Assembly: GCA_017852835.1 (NCBI GenBank)
Contig: JAFMKS010000007.1
Coordinates: 1-58,583, forward strand
Reading direction: 5' to 3'
Source of the DNA: Paracoccaceae bacterium
Lineage (GTDB): Bacteria > Pseudomonadota > Alphaproteobacteria > Rhodobacterales > Rhodobacteraceae
Length of the DNA: 58,583 bases
The number at the start of each line of letters is the position of its first letter. Position 1 is the stretch's first letter. The notes under the pieces are model-generated. The model saw only the letters and a list, made by a program, of their open reading frames with translations, made no database searches and had not been told where the DNA came from. Below are positions 1,946 to 20,217 of this stretch, piece after piece. The translations under genes were made by a program, and so were the position numbers.

Positions 1946-3352
1946 ATGATGCGAATGCGTTTTGGAATGAAATTATCTGTACTAGCGGTATCCGCGTTGA
2001 TCGTTGGGGCAGGGGCCGTTTCCGCAGATACGCTTCGTCAGGCATTGACCAAAGCCTACAATAATTCTGGCCTGCTGGAACAAAATCGCGCTGTTTTGCG
2101 CGCCGCGAATGAAGATGTTGCACAAGCTGTGACAACCCTGCGTCCCGTATTCAATTGGAGCGCTGGGATCACGCATAACTTCGGTAGATCGCTATCACCC
2201 GGAACGGGTGCCTTGGTAAATACGGATAGCACCTCGCAGTCTTTGGCGTTGTCTGCTGAGATGACAATTTATGACGGTGGTTCGAATAAGTTCGCAATCG
2301 AAGCTGCAAAAGAAACCGTTTTGGCGACGCGTCAATCGTTGATTTCCGTTGAACAAAACGTTTTGCTTGACGCTGTGCAGGCCTATATGGATGTGCGTCG
2401 CGAAACGGAAACAGTTACTCTTCGTCAAAATAACTTGCGTGTCATTCAAGAAGAACTACGGGCAGCGCAAGACCGTTTTGATGTGGGCGAAGTCACAAAA
2501 ACCGATGTGGCCTTGGCAGAGGCGCGATTTGCGTCATCCCTTGCGCAGCTCGAGGCCGCTAAAGGTGCGTTACAACAAGCGAAAGCTCGATATATGCAAG
2601 CGGTTGGTGTTACTGCCAATGGTTTATCTACACCGCCCAGCCTGCCGAACCTGCCCGACTCTGTTGCTGCAGCGCAGTCTGTTGCTGTGCGCAATCATCC
2701 AGCGATGCGCCAAATTCAGCATGCGATCAAAGCCGCAGATCTGAACATTGCACGTGCTAAAACAGCGAGTGGACCAACCGCGACGATCGGTGGGTCCTAT
2801 GGTATTGCCCGCACCAACAATTCGAAAGCAACAGAGCCTGGATCGTTTTCACTCAATATCCGTGGTCCGATCTATACGGGTGGAAATATCCCGTCTGTCA
2901 TTCGCAAAGCGCAAGCACAGAAAGAAGCACAGGTTGCGAACCTACACGTTAGCAAGCGCCAGATTGAGCAGGCAGCCGCAACCTCATACGCCCTGTTGGA
3001 CATGGCACGTGCCAGTCGCAAGGCAACAGAAGAGCAAATTCGCGCCTCACAAGTTGCCTTTGAGGGCACGAAAGAAGAGGCAACATTGGGCGCACGTACC
3101 ACATTGGATGTGTTGAATGCGGAACAAGACCTGTTGAACGCCAAAGCTAGCCTTATTTCTGCCTTGGCTGATGAACAGGTTGCGGCCTACCGTCTATTGG
3201 CGCAAATGGGGCAATTGACCGTGGACCATCTGAATTTGCCTGTGCAAAAATATGATCCCGACGCATATTATAACCATGTGAAAAACGCCCCAGCGGCCAG
3301 CGACCAAGGCAAAGCCTTAGACCGCGTTTTAAAAGCATTGGGCCAGGAATAA
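1946..3352 (+). CDS. tolC: TolC family outer membrane efflux channel
   Basis: The product is an outer-membrane trimeric channel subunit that connects to inner-membrane exporters (RND, ABC or type I secretion). It is 468 aa, usual for TolC. A signal peptide covers about residues 1-27, ending VSA before DTLRQALTKAY. The two duplicated OEP repeats are visible, with long alpha-helical stretches rich in Ala, Gln and Glu and the repeat pattern of DVALAEARFASS and LDVLNAEQDLLNA before the turns. The start is the first of two adjacent ATGs, after AAAGG. It follows pcm, as in related genomes. Sequence alone does not say which exporter it serves. Confidence 0.9.
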   Translation: MMRMRFGMKLSVLAVSALIVGAGAVSADTLRQALTKAYNNSGLLEQNRAVLRAANEDVAQAVTTLRPVFNWSAGITHNFGRSLSPGTGALVNTDSTSQSLALSAEMTIYDGGSNKFAIEAAKETVLATRQSLISVEQNVLLDAVQAYMDVRRETETVTLRQNNLRVIQEELRAAQDRFDVGEVTKTDVALAEARFASSLAQLEAAKGALQQAKARYMQAVGVTANGLSTPPSLPNLPDSVAAAQSVAVRNHPAMRQIQHAIKAADLNIARAKTASGPTATIGGSYGIARTNNSKATEPGSFSLNIRGPIYTGGNIPSVIRKAQAQKEAQVANLHVSKRQIEQAAATSYALLDMARASRKATEEQIRASQVAFEGTKEEATLGARTTLDVLNAEQDLLNAKASLISALADEQVAAYRLLAQMGQLTVDHLNLPVQKYDPDAYYNHVKNAPAASDQGKALDRVLKALGQE

Positions 3353-3417
3353 CCTTGTGTTTGTGAAAACCCGCGTTGAAAAGTATCCTAATGCTTGAAA
3401 GTTGGGTTAATCACTGA

Positions 3418-3940
3418 ATGTCTGGATCAACAGAACAAAAAGCGGCAGACAGAACTTCTGTCATATCTTAAACGCATCGTGTCAGAAGAACCCGCGCAAA
3501 AAGAAGGCGCGAAATTGGTTTTGACACCATCGCAACGCGTCGGGCTTGACCCAAAGCCACGTGCACCGCGACCTTAAGTGTTGTCCCATTCGCTTGAGGC
3601 CAAAGTTACCCAACTGGAAGAGATCATTGCACGCAGTGATTATGAATGGGAACCAGATGGCGATTACGCGGGGAGTGTCACAGCAACCCTTGATTGGGAG
3701 CGTGTTGCGGATGCTGCGCGAGATGAGTTAGACAAGACAGTGTTGCAGGTCATCGACGAACCCGTAGCGCGGACGGATGTTGAACACTTAAACGACGAAG
3801 AAATGGACGCATTGCGATAGATTGTTGCCAAGATTGTCCGCGAAGAATTAAAGGGACATCTGTGCGACCAGATAACCGCAAAAATACGCCAGATGGTTCA
3901 GCGTGAGATTAAAGCGTAACTGGACGAACACCAAAAATAA
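3418..3940 (+). pseudogene. Decayed DUF2497 / PopZ-like protein gene
   Basis: In this position relatives carry a DUF2497 (PopZ-type polar organising) gene. Remnants are clear. ATG 3418 opens MSGSTEQKAAD in frame 1. The sequence then shifts near 3455-3470 to frame 2 (YLKRIVSEEP, then KLVLTPSQRVG), with LEAKVTQLEEIIARSDYEWEPDGD further on. After an in-frame TAG the conserved C-terminal helix block follows (IVAKIVREELKGHL, then QITAKIRQMVQREIKA). Frame 2 is broken by TAA 3575-3577, TAG 3818-3820 and TAA 3917-3919 before the natural-looking TAA 3938-3940. One frameshift plus three nonsense codons argue for a pseudogene. The family name comes from remembered motifs. Confidence 0.75.
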
Positions 3941-3963
3941 AAAGCGCGGACCGAAGTCCGCGC
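3930..3963 (-). terminator. Intrinsic terminator of the leftward small gene
   Basis: A perfect 8-bp stem (3944-3951 GCGCGGAC with 3956-3963 GTCCGCGC) closes a CGAA loop. Read leftward it is followed by a U-rich tract from the A-run at 3930-3943. It ends transcription of the gene at 3989-4309 and overlaps the end of the decayed DUF2497 gene. Confidence 0.8.
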
Positions 3964-3988
3964 CCATTAACTCTGTTGTGTTGCGTGC

Positions 3989-4309
3989 TTATGCAGCTTC
4001 GGCTTGTTGTGCCGCGTGACGGCGTTCGCTCTCTTCGCGTGACAGCGCGACAGATGTGCGGACACCTTTTTCCACAAACTCCATCAATCCTGCAACAACC
4101 CGCTCATTCGGATCAATGCCTGCACAGGACAACACTTCACGCCCGTCGCGTGATCTCGCCCAACGCGCAATTTGGTCTGGGCCATTGCCGTATTTCTTAT
4201 CATCCGCAATTGCATCGTCCAATGCTGCCAATACCACTGCCGCAAACAGTTTGCGGGCGCGGTTACCTTGTTCAGCGTTAAATGCAGTTGCATCAACGAA
4301 ATCAACCAT
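3989..4309 (-). CDS. Conserved hypothetical protein, DUF6280-like
   Basis: A small soluble 106-aa protein with no signal peptide or membrane segment. It has a compact alpha-helical look (ARKLFAAVVLAALDDAIAD) and a conserved-looking middle (DQIARWARSRDGREVLSCAGIDPNERVV). I recall this pattern from Rhodobacterales proteins labelled DUF6280, whose function is unknown. It is transcribed divergently from efp and ends at a strong terminator. The N-terminal MVDFVDATAFNAEQGNRARK supports the ATG at 4309. No function is assigned. Confidence 0.75.
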   Translation of the reverse strand: MVDFVDATAFNAEQGNRARKLFAAVVLAALDDAIADDKKYGNGPDQIARWARSRDGREVLSCAGIDPNERVVAGLMEFVEKGVRTSVALSREESERRHAAQQAEAA

Positions 4310-4438
4310 CTCGTCGTCCTTTTTTATCTTGTCATTTTGGCGTAGCGATGCTTATGCCCGAAAAAAAACGATTCGGGTAGACTTATTTTGCATAACTGTC
4401 ATGCTGAAAATGCATGCCTTGTCCGCAGATAAGCGCGC

Positions 4439-4467
4439 TTGCCAACTATTGGTCTACAAGATATAGG
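4439..4467 (+). promoter_or_regulatory. Candidate sigma-70-type promoter of efp
   Basis: TTGCCA (4439-4444), a 17-nt spacer and TATAGG (4462-4467) match the -35 and -10 consensus at five and four of six positions. The predicted start is near 4475, giving a leader of about 33 nt to the efp ATG. This was found by eye. Confidence 0.4.
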
Positions 4468-4507
4468 GGCCAAAGATTTAAATTCAACGTTTGAAGGAGA
4501 CCTTCGA

Positions 4508-5071
4508 ATGCCAAAAATCAACGGAAACGAAATTCGTCCAGGTAATGTGTTAGAGCATGATGGTGGCCTATGGGCCGCAGTAAAAGTTGATCACGTAAAA
4601 CCAGGCAAAGGCGGTGCCTTTGCGCAGGTTGAATTGCGCAATTTGCGCAATGGTTCCAAACTCAATGAACGCTTCCGCAGCGCCGATAAAGTTGAGCGTG
4701 TTCGTCTTGAGCAAAAAGACCAACAGTTCCTTTATGAATCCGATGGCATGTTGGTGTTCATGGACACTGAAACGTACGAACAAATCGAACTTCCCGCTGA
4801 TCTGTTGGGCGAACGTCGTCCGTTCCTTCAAGATGGGATGACAATTGTTGTTGAATTTTACGATGAGGAAGCACTGAACGCGACCCTTCCCCAAAAAGTT
4901 ACATGCAAAGTGGTTGAAACAGAGCCAGTGGTCAAAGGTCAAACGGCCGCCAACAGCTTTAAACCGGCGATCTTGGACAACGGTGTCAAGGTTATGGTTC
5001 CACCCTTTATCGCGCAGGACGAAGACATCGTCGTAAACACAGAAACGATGGATTATTCAGAGCGCGCTTAG
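4508..5071 (+). CDS. efp: Translation elongation factor P
   Basis: EF-P (187 aa) binds ribosomes stalled at proline runs and restores peptide-bond formation. The three-domain layout is intact: an N-terminal KOW-like domain ([14 protein letters not shown]), an OB domain ([15 protein letters not shown]) and a C-terminal OB domain ([14 protein letters not shown]). The modified tip is [10 protein letters not shown] near residues 30-39, where a lysine is the usual modification site. The ATG at 4508 has a near-perfect GAAGGAGA ribosome site; the longer open frame upstream lacks one. The gene is divergent from the DUF6280-like gene. Confidence 0.97.
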
Positions 5072-10943: not shown

Positions 10944-11060
10944 TGGAATTCCTTTTATTTATGCCATCAATCAATAGTCGGGATTTGTGCGACGTCAACA
11001 TGGCTTGCGTTTGGAGTGACGAAACCTTACCTAGGCCATAGGCCGCGCACAGGGACCCTT

Positions 11061-11785
11061 ATGTTTAAGAAAATCGCAGATCGCTATTTTGCTTGGGAAC
11101 GCTATCTGCGTGATTCATTTGGGGACGACATTGAAACCCCTAAAGGGCGGTTTTGGGCCTATGTCCATTTTCATTTGATGGATCACGCATTTTTTCGGGT
11201 GTTGTGGACAAATATGCGCGAAATTGCGCCCGATGTGTACCGATCAAATCAACCCTCGCCACGCAGGATAGCAAAGTGGAAGTCGAAGGGCATCCAAACG
11301 GTTGTTAATCTACGTGGCGCGCCAATCCAATCGCATGGGTTGCTTGAGGAAGAAGCCTGTAAAGCCGCAGGGATTGATATGGTGTGTCTGAAATTTGGGG
11401 CACGTCACGCGCCTGATAGGACACTGTTGCTTGAGCTGTTCGAGATATTTGATGACCTTAAGGTACCGACTGTGTTTCATTGTAAATCAGGGGCAGATCG
11501 CGCAGGTTTTTTTCCGCCCTCTATCTGAATATGGTTGCAGGCCACCCGATGGAGAAAGCGGCAAAACAACTAAGCCTGCGTCACCTGCATGTTGATTTCA
11601 CACCTACAGGTATCCTTGATTATGTTTTGCGTGTGTATATGGAACGCAACCGACGATCGCCCATTTCGTTTCGCGACTGGGTTATTTCAGAGTATGATGC
11701 GCCGACCGTGCATCACGGATATCAAGATCGCATTATGTGGTCAGAAACAGTGGATAAATTGCAGGGCCTTACGCCTGCTGTGTAA
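11061..11785 (+). pseudogene. Tyrosine-phosphatase-family gene with frameshift at a T7 run
   Basis: The first part (from ATG 11061, AGGG upstream) encodes a dual-specificity-like phosphatase: DVYRSNQPSPRRI, then the catalytic CX5R loop C141-KSGAD-R147. The frame then hits a stop at 11526-11528. Directly after the catalytic arginine lies a run of seven T (11507-11513). Shifting frame there gives FSALYLNMVAGHPM and runs on through KQLSLRHLHVDFT to 11785. The two halves together make one family-length protein of about 240 aa. The cause could be a one-base indel in the chromosome, a sequencing error or slippage. The 3' end overlaps the convergent YdcZ-type gene by 17 nt. Confidence 0.75.
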
Positions 11786-18052: not shown

Positions 18053-18123
18053 CGTTCAAATTTTTAACTTTATCTTCGGAAATATTGCGCAGTTTCGGCA
18101 CAGTAATTGTGTCGGAGGTGACG

Positions 18124-18621
18124 ATGAATAGTATTAACCCGTTCTGGCAAAACACCGACACCTCGGTGGCCCAGCAGTATTTAGATGCTCTGTCTTTGAT
18201 TGAACGTCTGCACCGTTTGCTGTTGGATGTGATCAAGGATGAATTTGAACTTTTGGGTGTTTTGGAAATCAACGCAGTTCAGGCGTTGCGATTGTTCAAT
18301 ATTGGTGAAAACGAGGTAACGGCGGGTGAGCTGAAGTCGCGCGAATATTATCAGGGTGGTAACGTAAGCTATAATTTAAAAAAGCTAGTCGATTTGGGAT
18401 ATATGCATCATCAGCGTTGTGAAATGGATCGGCGGTCCGTTCGCGTTAAATTAACCGCCAAGGGGCGGGATATTAAAGATACACTATCGCAGTTATTTGT
18501 GAAACACGCCGAAATTTTGCAAACCCGCGCGGATTTGTCATCTCAGCATGTGGATACGATTACCAAGGGTCTAAAATCGTTAGAGCGTTTTTGGACCGAT
18601 CAAATTAGATATATCTACTAA
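18124..18621 (+). CDS. MarR-family winged-helix regulator, LdtR-like
   Basis: A 165-aa regulator. It has N-terminal dimerisation helices, then the winged HTH (ITAGELKSRE-type recognition: VTAGELKSREYYQGGNVSYN, then LKKLVDLGYM) and the wing DRRSVRVKLTAKG. NVSYNLKKLVDLGYMHHQRCEMDRRS is the pattern I associate with LdtR, which controls L,D-transpeptidase and stress genes in alphaproteobacteria. ATG 18124 follows a strong GGAGG. It is monocistronic, with a terminator right after it. Confidence 0.82.
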   Translation: MNSINPFWQNTDTSVAQQYLDALSLIERLHRLLLDVIKDEFELLGVLEINAVQALRLFNIGENEVTAGELKSREYYQGGNVSYNLKKLVDLGYMHHQRCEMDRRSVRVKLTAKGRDIKDTLSQLFVKHAEILQTRADLSSQHVDTITKGLKSLERFWTDQIRYIY

Positions 18622-19119: not shown

Positions 19120-20217
19120 TTATGGCAGGTTCCGATCTAAAATAAAACCACCAGCTTCTTCGTATTGATCGATTTCTCTATCATAAGTGCCGTTTTGTGA
19201 ATTCATGAACTGTGTTGGATCTTGCGATGTCAATGTGATGACGCCCGCACCTTCGGGAATGAGCCCCTCTGCATTTGTGGACAATATTCCGTAAACAGAC
19301 CCAGTTTCAAAAGTGCTTTCGCCAAGGTCAGTGTCGAATTCCGTCGTGAACTCTCCGTTTAAATCCATCTCGCTTTCTACAACAAAACGTATTGTGTCTG
19401 GATGGTTAAGTTCATAACCGGGGTCACCTTTCAAAGACAGTCCCGTCACCATTGAGTATCTGGTTCTGTTGTTCATCCTGAATTGTGTCGAGCGCGAGAC
19501 ATTTGGATCTTGAATGTCAACTTGAAAAAAGAGTTCCGCGATTACATATTCTCCGCCTGTTGTTCCCTTTTTGGTACGTAGACCAAGATATTCGCCCGTC
19601 CTCGCAATCTCACCGTCTTCTCCAGGTGAAAATGTAACCAGAACATTATTTTCATCGAATTGCTCTCGTTGGTACTTATATCCCTTCAACGTGTCGGTAA
19701 CCTTGAACACATGGTGAACGACGACATACCCAATAGCGCCTGATGTTGACGTTCCCGCAATCGCAAAAGACCCGTTTTGCGGAATGCTTTGAGAATTTTG
19801 AGGGTCAGTGACGGTGAATGGTGCGGCATAGACATCTTGTGTGCCAAAACCACCGAAATTTGTGACCTTCGTGTGCGGATCACTCGTGGTACAATCAAAC
19901 CCGAGATTGTCGATATAAAGAACTTCGTTTCTATTTTCGACGGCATAATGCACATCCCCAGCCCCACCGAAAGTGCGGATGATTGAATTATTTTCGGGCG
20001 TGACGTTCACAACGGAATTACCATCCGGCGGCGTAGCACCGCCAAATGAAATGGATGTTACAGTATTTTCCGATGTGTCTGAGTTCCCTGAACCATCGGT
20101 GTTATCTGTCGTACCAATGTTATTGTAGGATGTTTCGTCAGTCGTCGCTGTGTTTGAGTCGGCTGCATTGTCAAAGGGATTGGTGCCCGCACCACCGCCA
20201 CAGGATGCGACAAACAT
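19120..20217 (-). CDS. Lipoprotein-like hypothetical protein with truncated signal peptide
   Basis: A 365-aa protein of unknown function. It opens MFVASCGGG, a lipobox-like VASC with glycines, then a long Asn/Thr/Asp/Ser-rich linker (to about residue 55) and a beta-rich domain of repeated FGG, GDVHYAVENRNEVLY and similar strands. A lipoprotein should have a basic n-region and about 15 hydrophobic residues before the cysteine; only five residues are present and an in-frame TAA lies just upstream. A hydrophobic stretch (YVYFYILINISAL) is encoded one frame away, ending at the same place, which suggests a recent frameshift near 20218-20225. It lies upstream of gloA. Confidence 0.7.
   Translation of the reverse strand: MFVASCGGGAGTNPFDNAADSNTATTDETSYNNIGTTDNTDGSGNSDTSENTVTSISFGGATPPDGNSVVNVTPENNSIIRTFGGAGDVHYAVENRNEVLYIDNLGFDCTTSDPHTKVTNFGGFGTQDVYAAPFTVTDPQNSQSIPQNGSFAIAGTSTSGAIGYVVVHHVFKVTDTLKGYKYQREQFDENNVLVTFSPGEDGEIARTGEYLGLRTKKGTTGGEYVIAELFFQVDIQDPNVSRSTQFRMNNRTRYSMVTGLSLKGDPGYELNHPDTIRFVVESEMDLNGEFTTEFDTDLGESTFETGSVYGILSTNAEGLIPEGAGVITLTSQDPTQFMNSQNGTYDREIDQYEEAGGFILDRNLP

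Follow-up and report, generated by a model that had tools for sequence, protein, structure and literature searches.

We analysed a window of 58,583 nucleotides, by which we mean the whole stretch studied here (positions 1 to 58,583 of contig JAFMKS010000007.1). Beside a TolC-type efflux gene it carries a broken gene. This is very probably a recently inactivated pseudogene from the PopZ-like family of the Rhodobacteraceae, which by its place next to tolC is the positional orthologue of popZ. In the Alphaproteobacteria studied in most detail, PopZ holds chromosome origins and cell-cycle regulators at the cell pole. The source of the window is a MAG of 2.36 Mb (128 contigs, 82.5% complete), the one genome that represents its species. 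It belongs to an uncultured marine roseobacter of the same genus as the isolate Rhodobacteraceae bacterium HIMB11 (G002), whose genome is 99% complete and whose contig AVDB01000003.1 served for comparison. HIMB11 is described in the excerpted text of PMC4148974 as short irregular rods, likely motile judging from its genes.

The window is collinear with HIMB11 over nearly its full length, at 91-94% identity. Alignment with close relatives, which the initial annotation had proposed, bears out the break. At the same place HIMB11 has an intact ORF of 173 aa that aligns along its whole length, and its protein matched the window with residues 7-173 (E 7.5e-82, 85% identity), with one TAG and two TAA codons inside the match. 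Two other congeners are draft genomes in which the gene is interrupted, by a run of N in G001 and by a contig end in G003; the readable N-terminal part of G001 is open, and so are residues 1-60 and 90-173, the readable parts of G003. The protein match, the synteny and a dN/dS of 0.134 together place the resemblance beyond chance.

The locus starts with the ATG at 3418 and has one extra base near 3451 relative to its relatives. It then runs into in-frame stops at 3575-3577 (TAA), 3818-3820 (TAG) and 3917-3919 (TAA), which in the HIMB11 frame of 173 codons fall at codons 53, 138 and 171 (Table 1). Because the last of these lies at codon 171, it is a trim and not a serious lesion; it shortens the protein by three residues compared with HIMB11 and by seven compared with G003, whose tail is longer (the G003 count was made by eye). 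What disables the gene is the frame change together with the stops at codons 53 and 138. The initial annotation had described a gene whose translation is blocked by a frameshift and three stops: the gene is indeed broken and all of these lesions are present, but as a block to translation the stop at 3917 is trivial. Between the lesions one can still read the LVLTP block, an EPDGD segment and the helix region of the C-terminus, much as described before, except that the middle segment, given as ESxxEPDGD, actually reads EWEPDGD. The end of tolC is separated from position 3418 by 65 bases. A known RNA gene was ruled out as an explanation of the locus, as Rfam at gathering thresholds matched zero families over 2900-4600.

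Table 1. The broken locus, its lesions and remnants, and its two neighbours (positions in the window)
Feature	Position	Strand	Basis or remark
TolC-type outer membrane efflux gene (PF02321)	1946..3352	+	intact, upstream neighbour
Probable PopZ-like pseudogene, whose HIMB11 counterpart is intact (173 aa)	3418..3919	+	protein match, alignment to congeners
Frameshift: length differs by one base from that in three congeners, outside any homopolymer run	3446..3456	+	alignment
Remnant with N-terminal helix (LLSYLKRIVSEE) and KLVLTPSQRV block, ended by the 3575-3577 stop	3459..3577	+	
Middle fragment (LEAKVTQLEEIIAR, EWEPDGD, LDWE), an 80-codon open frame, ended by the 3818-3820 stop	3578..3820	+	
C-terminal helix region (IVAKIVREELKGHL...IRQMVQREIK), past the second stop; the 3917-3919 stop trims the last residues only	3821..3919	+	
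DUF6280 gene (PF19796)	3989..4309	-	intact, downstream neighbour

The relationship to PopZ was examined with an alignment of 19 Rhodobacteraceae sequences, made up of HIMB11 and 18 of 21 homologues (two incomplete or unusual sequences and one divergent one were left out), and with a canonical set drawn from 12 of 18 PF10691 loci of the same class. All 19 have the motif IEDVLSSIRRLVSED at the N-terminus, the blocks LVLTPALRV and EWEPDG, and a conserved C-terminal region that accounts for 12 of the alignment's 16 invariant columns. In an hhalign comparison of the 19 rows with the 12 canonical ones, the C-terminal parts matched over 43 columns (probability 96.5%, E 8.6e-10). The canonical sequences all match NCBIfam PopZ_fam (12/12), and their profile matches PopZ 6XRY with an E of 6.3e-14. 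Positions 1-41 of the Rhodobacteraceae profile match residues 1-41 of Caulobacter PopZ 6XRY (E 0.0012), which is the sole PDB match. Linker makes up most of the protein, and the match to 6XRY is confined to the N-terminal part; the N-terminal helix motif is degraded in HIMB11, and in the window the frameshift runs through it. The HIMB11 copy stays under the curated cut-offs, with 17.2 vs 27 bits for PF10691 and 24.3 vs 125 bits for NF052660. PopZ_fam is nevertheless its best NCBIfam match, running from residue 11 to 169 over model positions 5-163 of 167. At E<=0.1, PF10691 matches 15 of the 19 members (best E 2.6e-5) and NF052660 PopZ_fam matches 17 (best E 1.7e-6).

Gene order points the same way. 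A tolC gene lies upstream of the PF10691 gene at 15 of 18 same-class loci and at 3 of 5 same-family loci (flanks were at most 1.5 kb, and misses prove nothing). Outside the family, the next ORF after the PF10691 gene is often valyl-tRNA synthetase-like (by eye). The family members G018, G036 and G117 also have tolC, PopZ-like ORF and valS-like ORF (the last recognised by eye) in the arrangement of the other orders. On these profile matches and this gene order, we read the family as a remote PopZ homologue and positional orthologue of popZ, though the curated scores place it outside the PopZ family. The DUF2497/PopZ-like label of the initial annotation holds in this sense.

The family thus shares with PopZ (PF10691, DUF2497; NF052660; 6XRY) an N-terminal helix motif, with the consensus IEDVLSSIRRLVSED vs MEEILASIRRIISED, a variable middle, a C-terminal helix region with an REI-type ending, and a position after tolC. 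In contrast, its C-terminal consensus is ELQGxLGERITRNVRKLVRREI (Rhodobacteraceae set) where the canonical one is LRPMLKEWLDxNLPxLVERxVxREI. The next gene in the window is DUF6280 and not valS-like, the HIMB11 copy is short (173 aa) and fast-evolving, and the window copy is broken.

The gene could instead be unrelated to PopZ, a roseobacter-specific protein merely resembling DUF2497, a reading that we consider improbable. The missed Pfam and NCBIfam cut-offs speak for it, and so do two papers in their excerpted text: R. sphaeroides is stated to contain no PopZ (PMC6414705), and many Rhodobacterales are described as being without a conspicuous PopZ orthologue. However, the N-terminal and C-terminal matches to PopZ are separate and in the right order, the best NCBIfam match covers residues 11-169 of the HIMB11 protein, and the site beside tolC is common to the family and PopZ, down to the valS-like ORF in the three genomes named above. 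The excerpted text of PMC8116508 contains no discussion of a Rhodobacterales PopZ, and among the open-licence papers listed by literature searches, none describes the divergent Rhodobacteraceae form in its title or the opening of its abstract.

As a control for sequencing error, HIMB11 ORFs of at least 90 codons were mapped onto the window (n=58). Forty-seven of the 58 mapped without a frame lesion, some of them spurious, such as an ORF antisense to DUF6280, and 11 were flagged, the PopZ-like gene among them. Also flagged were three over-extended starts (at 4491, 24637 and 27817), ORFs judged spurious or antisense (14185, 28943, 38777 and 47753, with dN/dS of 0.68-1.20), two whose frame is open in the window but shorter in HIMB11 (18107 and 19380), and a phosphatase-like gene (11395), which both genomes have in broken form, the window with one frameshift. 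Among the 58 mapped ORFs, several lesions in a conserved gene were found only in the PopZ-like gene. Error is therefore unlikely as the sole cause, as had been argued from the number of lesions. A MAG of this fragmentation and completeness does leave room for the idea that the true gene is intact and that errors of sequencing or assembly, or a consensus drawn from co-occurring strains, produced the lesions. The same gene is interrupted in the drafts G003 (contig end) and G001 (N run, either a gap or masking), and a strain-variable locus would be expected to assemble badly. We nevertheless hold this to be very unlikely: the lesions are concentrated in about 500 bases of one gene, other conserved mapped genes have at most a single frameshift, the length change lies outside a homopolymer run, and in one stop codon two bases differ from those of the relatives.

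A split gene, with its fragments still made as short proteins in their own right and part of the function kept, is the least probable of these explanations. In its favour, a GTG right after the first stop opens the 80-codon frame at 3578-3820, the N-terminal helix is encoded in a 60-codon frame that begins with a TTG at 3395, identity to HIMB11 is still 85%, and other genomes of the family have short PopZ-like forms. Against it, the C-terminal region with most of the invariant columns lies behind the second stop, where no start is evident; a recent break would itself leave identity high; and there are no split copies among the matches listed in the family survey.

Recent inactivation of a PopZ-like gene is thus the reading that we prefer. 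The locus is like recent bacterial pseudogenes in its few lesions, high remaining identity, intact neighbours and intact orthologue in a close relative; it is unlike them in that the gene hit presumably coded for a cell-pole scaffold. The dN/dS of 0.134, measured between the window and HIMB11 over comparable codons, is within the range of the neighbours (TolC 0.094, a glycosyltransferase 0.212), which indicates that most of the divergence accrued under constraint. Changes private to the window were counted over 137 codons, wherever HIMB11 and G003 agree, and comprised 14 synonymous, 9 non-synonymous and 4 stop-making changes, that is, an altering:synonymous ratio of 13:14. For nine neighbouring genes, the corresponding ratio was 75:194. 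The rise is marginal, with p values of 0.044 when stop-making base changes are counted, 0.070 when each stop codon is counted once and 0.34 without stops. The gene would accordingly have been constrained for most of its divergence and broken late, and later relaxation is only hinted at. An excess of stops was considered as a mark of selected inactivation and was dropped, since three stops arise under simulated pure drift with a P of 0.05 at 24 and 0.08 at 30 substitutions, and the gene had been picked for its stops.

The gene seems to have been eroding already before it broke. In a leave-one-out comparison, the intact HIMB11 copy departs from the family at 20 of 53 conserved columns, the most of the 19 members; G022, with a genome of 2.3 Mb, departs at 16 of 52, and the remaining 17 members at 11 or fewer. 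The 20 departures of an intact copy suggest that constraint had already weakened in the genus.

No second copy was found, as would be needed for the loss to be of little note by the initial annotation's own reasoning. The PF10691 search of the window's genome (82.5% complete) gave zero matches, and the HIMB11 protein matched one place only in that genome and one only in HIMB11. The family profile, run on the four genomes of the genus, gave several pieces in each, all at this locus (on two contigs in G003). A paralogue may lie in the missing part of the MAG, but the 99%-complete HIMB11 is without one.

As a survey tool, PF10691 alone was rejected, for it has no match in HIMB11 and most same-family genomes, and the family alignment was therefore used. 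At least 172 of 198 family genomes match it, the window's genome and HIMB11 included, in keeping with the description of the gene as widely kept. This count is a lower bound, with up to 11 candidates scored per genome, and some unmatched genomes do carry the gene. There were no internal stops among the matches listed, which are the stronger ones.

Twenty of the 26 unmatched genomes are named. Three of these are without a tolC match, and in the other 17 the stretch after the matched tolC was viewed, mostly by eye; this view replaced one anchored on DUF6280, in which tolC mostly fell outside the viewed stretch. A full or diverged gene was seen in 7 of the 17 (G087, G018, G026, G027, G004 and the canonical-type G011 and G020). 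Four of the 17 have short PopZ-like ORFs only, of 115 aa in G121 and G072, 133 aa in G036 and 130 aa in G117, the latter two measured stop to stop and with weak profile support (E 0.0045 and 0.037, respectively). The 115-aa ORFs follow tolC at 2916-3263 of L112 (G072) and at 1083-1430 of L100 (G121; L100 turned), and in both the N-terminal helix and LVL block are recognisable and the C-terminus is degraded. In G036 (L123, genome 1.9 Mb) and G117 (L125, 2.5 Mb), the short ORF stands between tolC and the valS-like ORF. In two, the gene is absent from this place although the neighbours are conserved: in G033, 49 bases separate tolC from DUF6280, and in G136 (L111, 2880-2939), 58 bases separate tolC from a cobyric-acid-synthase-like ORF (by eye), a place at which G016 has the gene. 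G032, G120, G081 and G086 have no such gene after the matched tolC, which may be another tolC; G081 has a PF10691 match elsewhere in its genome.

A tree of efp and DUF6280 from 25 genomes, mostly weak, groups G033 with the gene-bearing G024 and G031 (support 99 and 100), and its loss is therefore separate from that in the window; support for G121 and G136 is 54 and 25. Five of the 20 named unmatched genomes are of 2.6 Mb or less. A link between small genome size and absence of the gene is a lead only, as completeness confounds the two. Taken together, we lean towards the view that PopZ is not simply missing from the Rhodobacteraceae, and that a fast-evolving positional orthologue stands beside tolC in most genera and has repeatedly been worn away. 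The series would lead from the long forms of most genera through the 173 aa of HIMB11 and the 115-133 aa of G121, G072, G036 and G117 to the pseudogene of the window and to an empty place between conserved neighbours in G033 and G136. The loss, called notable by the initial annotation unless a paralogue exists, has parallels, with loss or shrinkage also in other genomes.

The intact protein would be a PopZ-type polar scaffold with an N-terminal client-binding helix, a variable acidic linker and C-terminal self-assembling helices. Constraint on it may have slackened in the genus before the break, and the window's lineage would then have lost the gene without replacement from the same family. 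Positioning of origins and of division would thereafter depend on the remaining machinery, MipZ included. MipZ has a full-length match in all four genomes of the genus, at 391-393 bits; the model also matches 14 of 14 control genomes, and it is thus the score and not the match itself that counts as evidence. As a pseudogene the locus is ordinary, and the divergent PopZ orthologue with its proposed repeated erosion in the family is the more interesting part. If this is true, a polar hub has been knocked down or knocked out naturally in these genomes, with MipZ kept in this genus. Most genera of a family said to lack a conspicuous PopZ would have a divergent orthologue, and the window would have caught it shortly after a break. 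This gives a gene to study in culturable roseobacters and natural losses for comparison.

Elsewhere in the window, a tyrosine-phosphatase-like gene at 11016-11785 (+), with weak PF13350 and PTP-type matches, has a single frameshift near 11510; its HIMB11 counterpart is broken too, at different places, as in a second gene decaying in parallel. A MarR-type regulator at 18085-18621 (+) is open in the window (178 aa) and has a different end in HIMB11, where it is shorter (154 aa). At 19120-20217 (-) lies a protein of 365 aa that matches nothing in Pfam at E<=0.01; its HIMB11 version stops early, at 300 aa.
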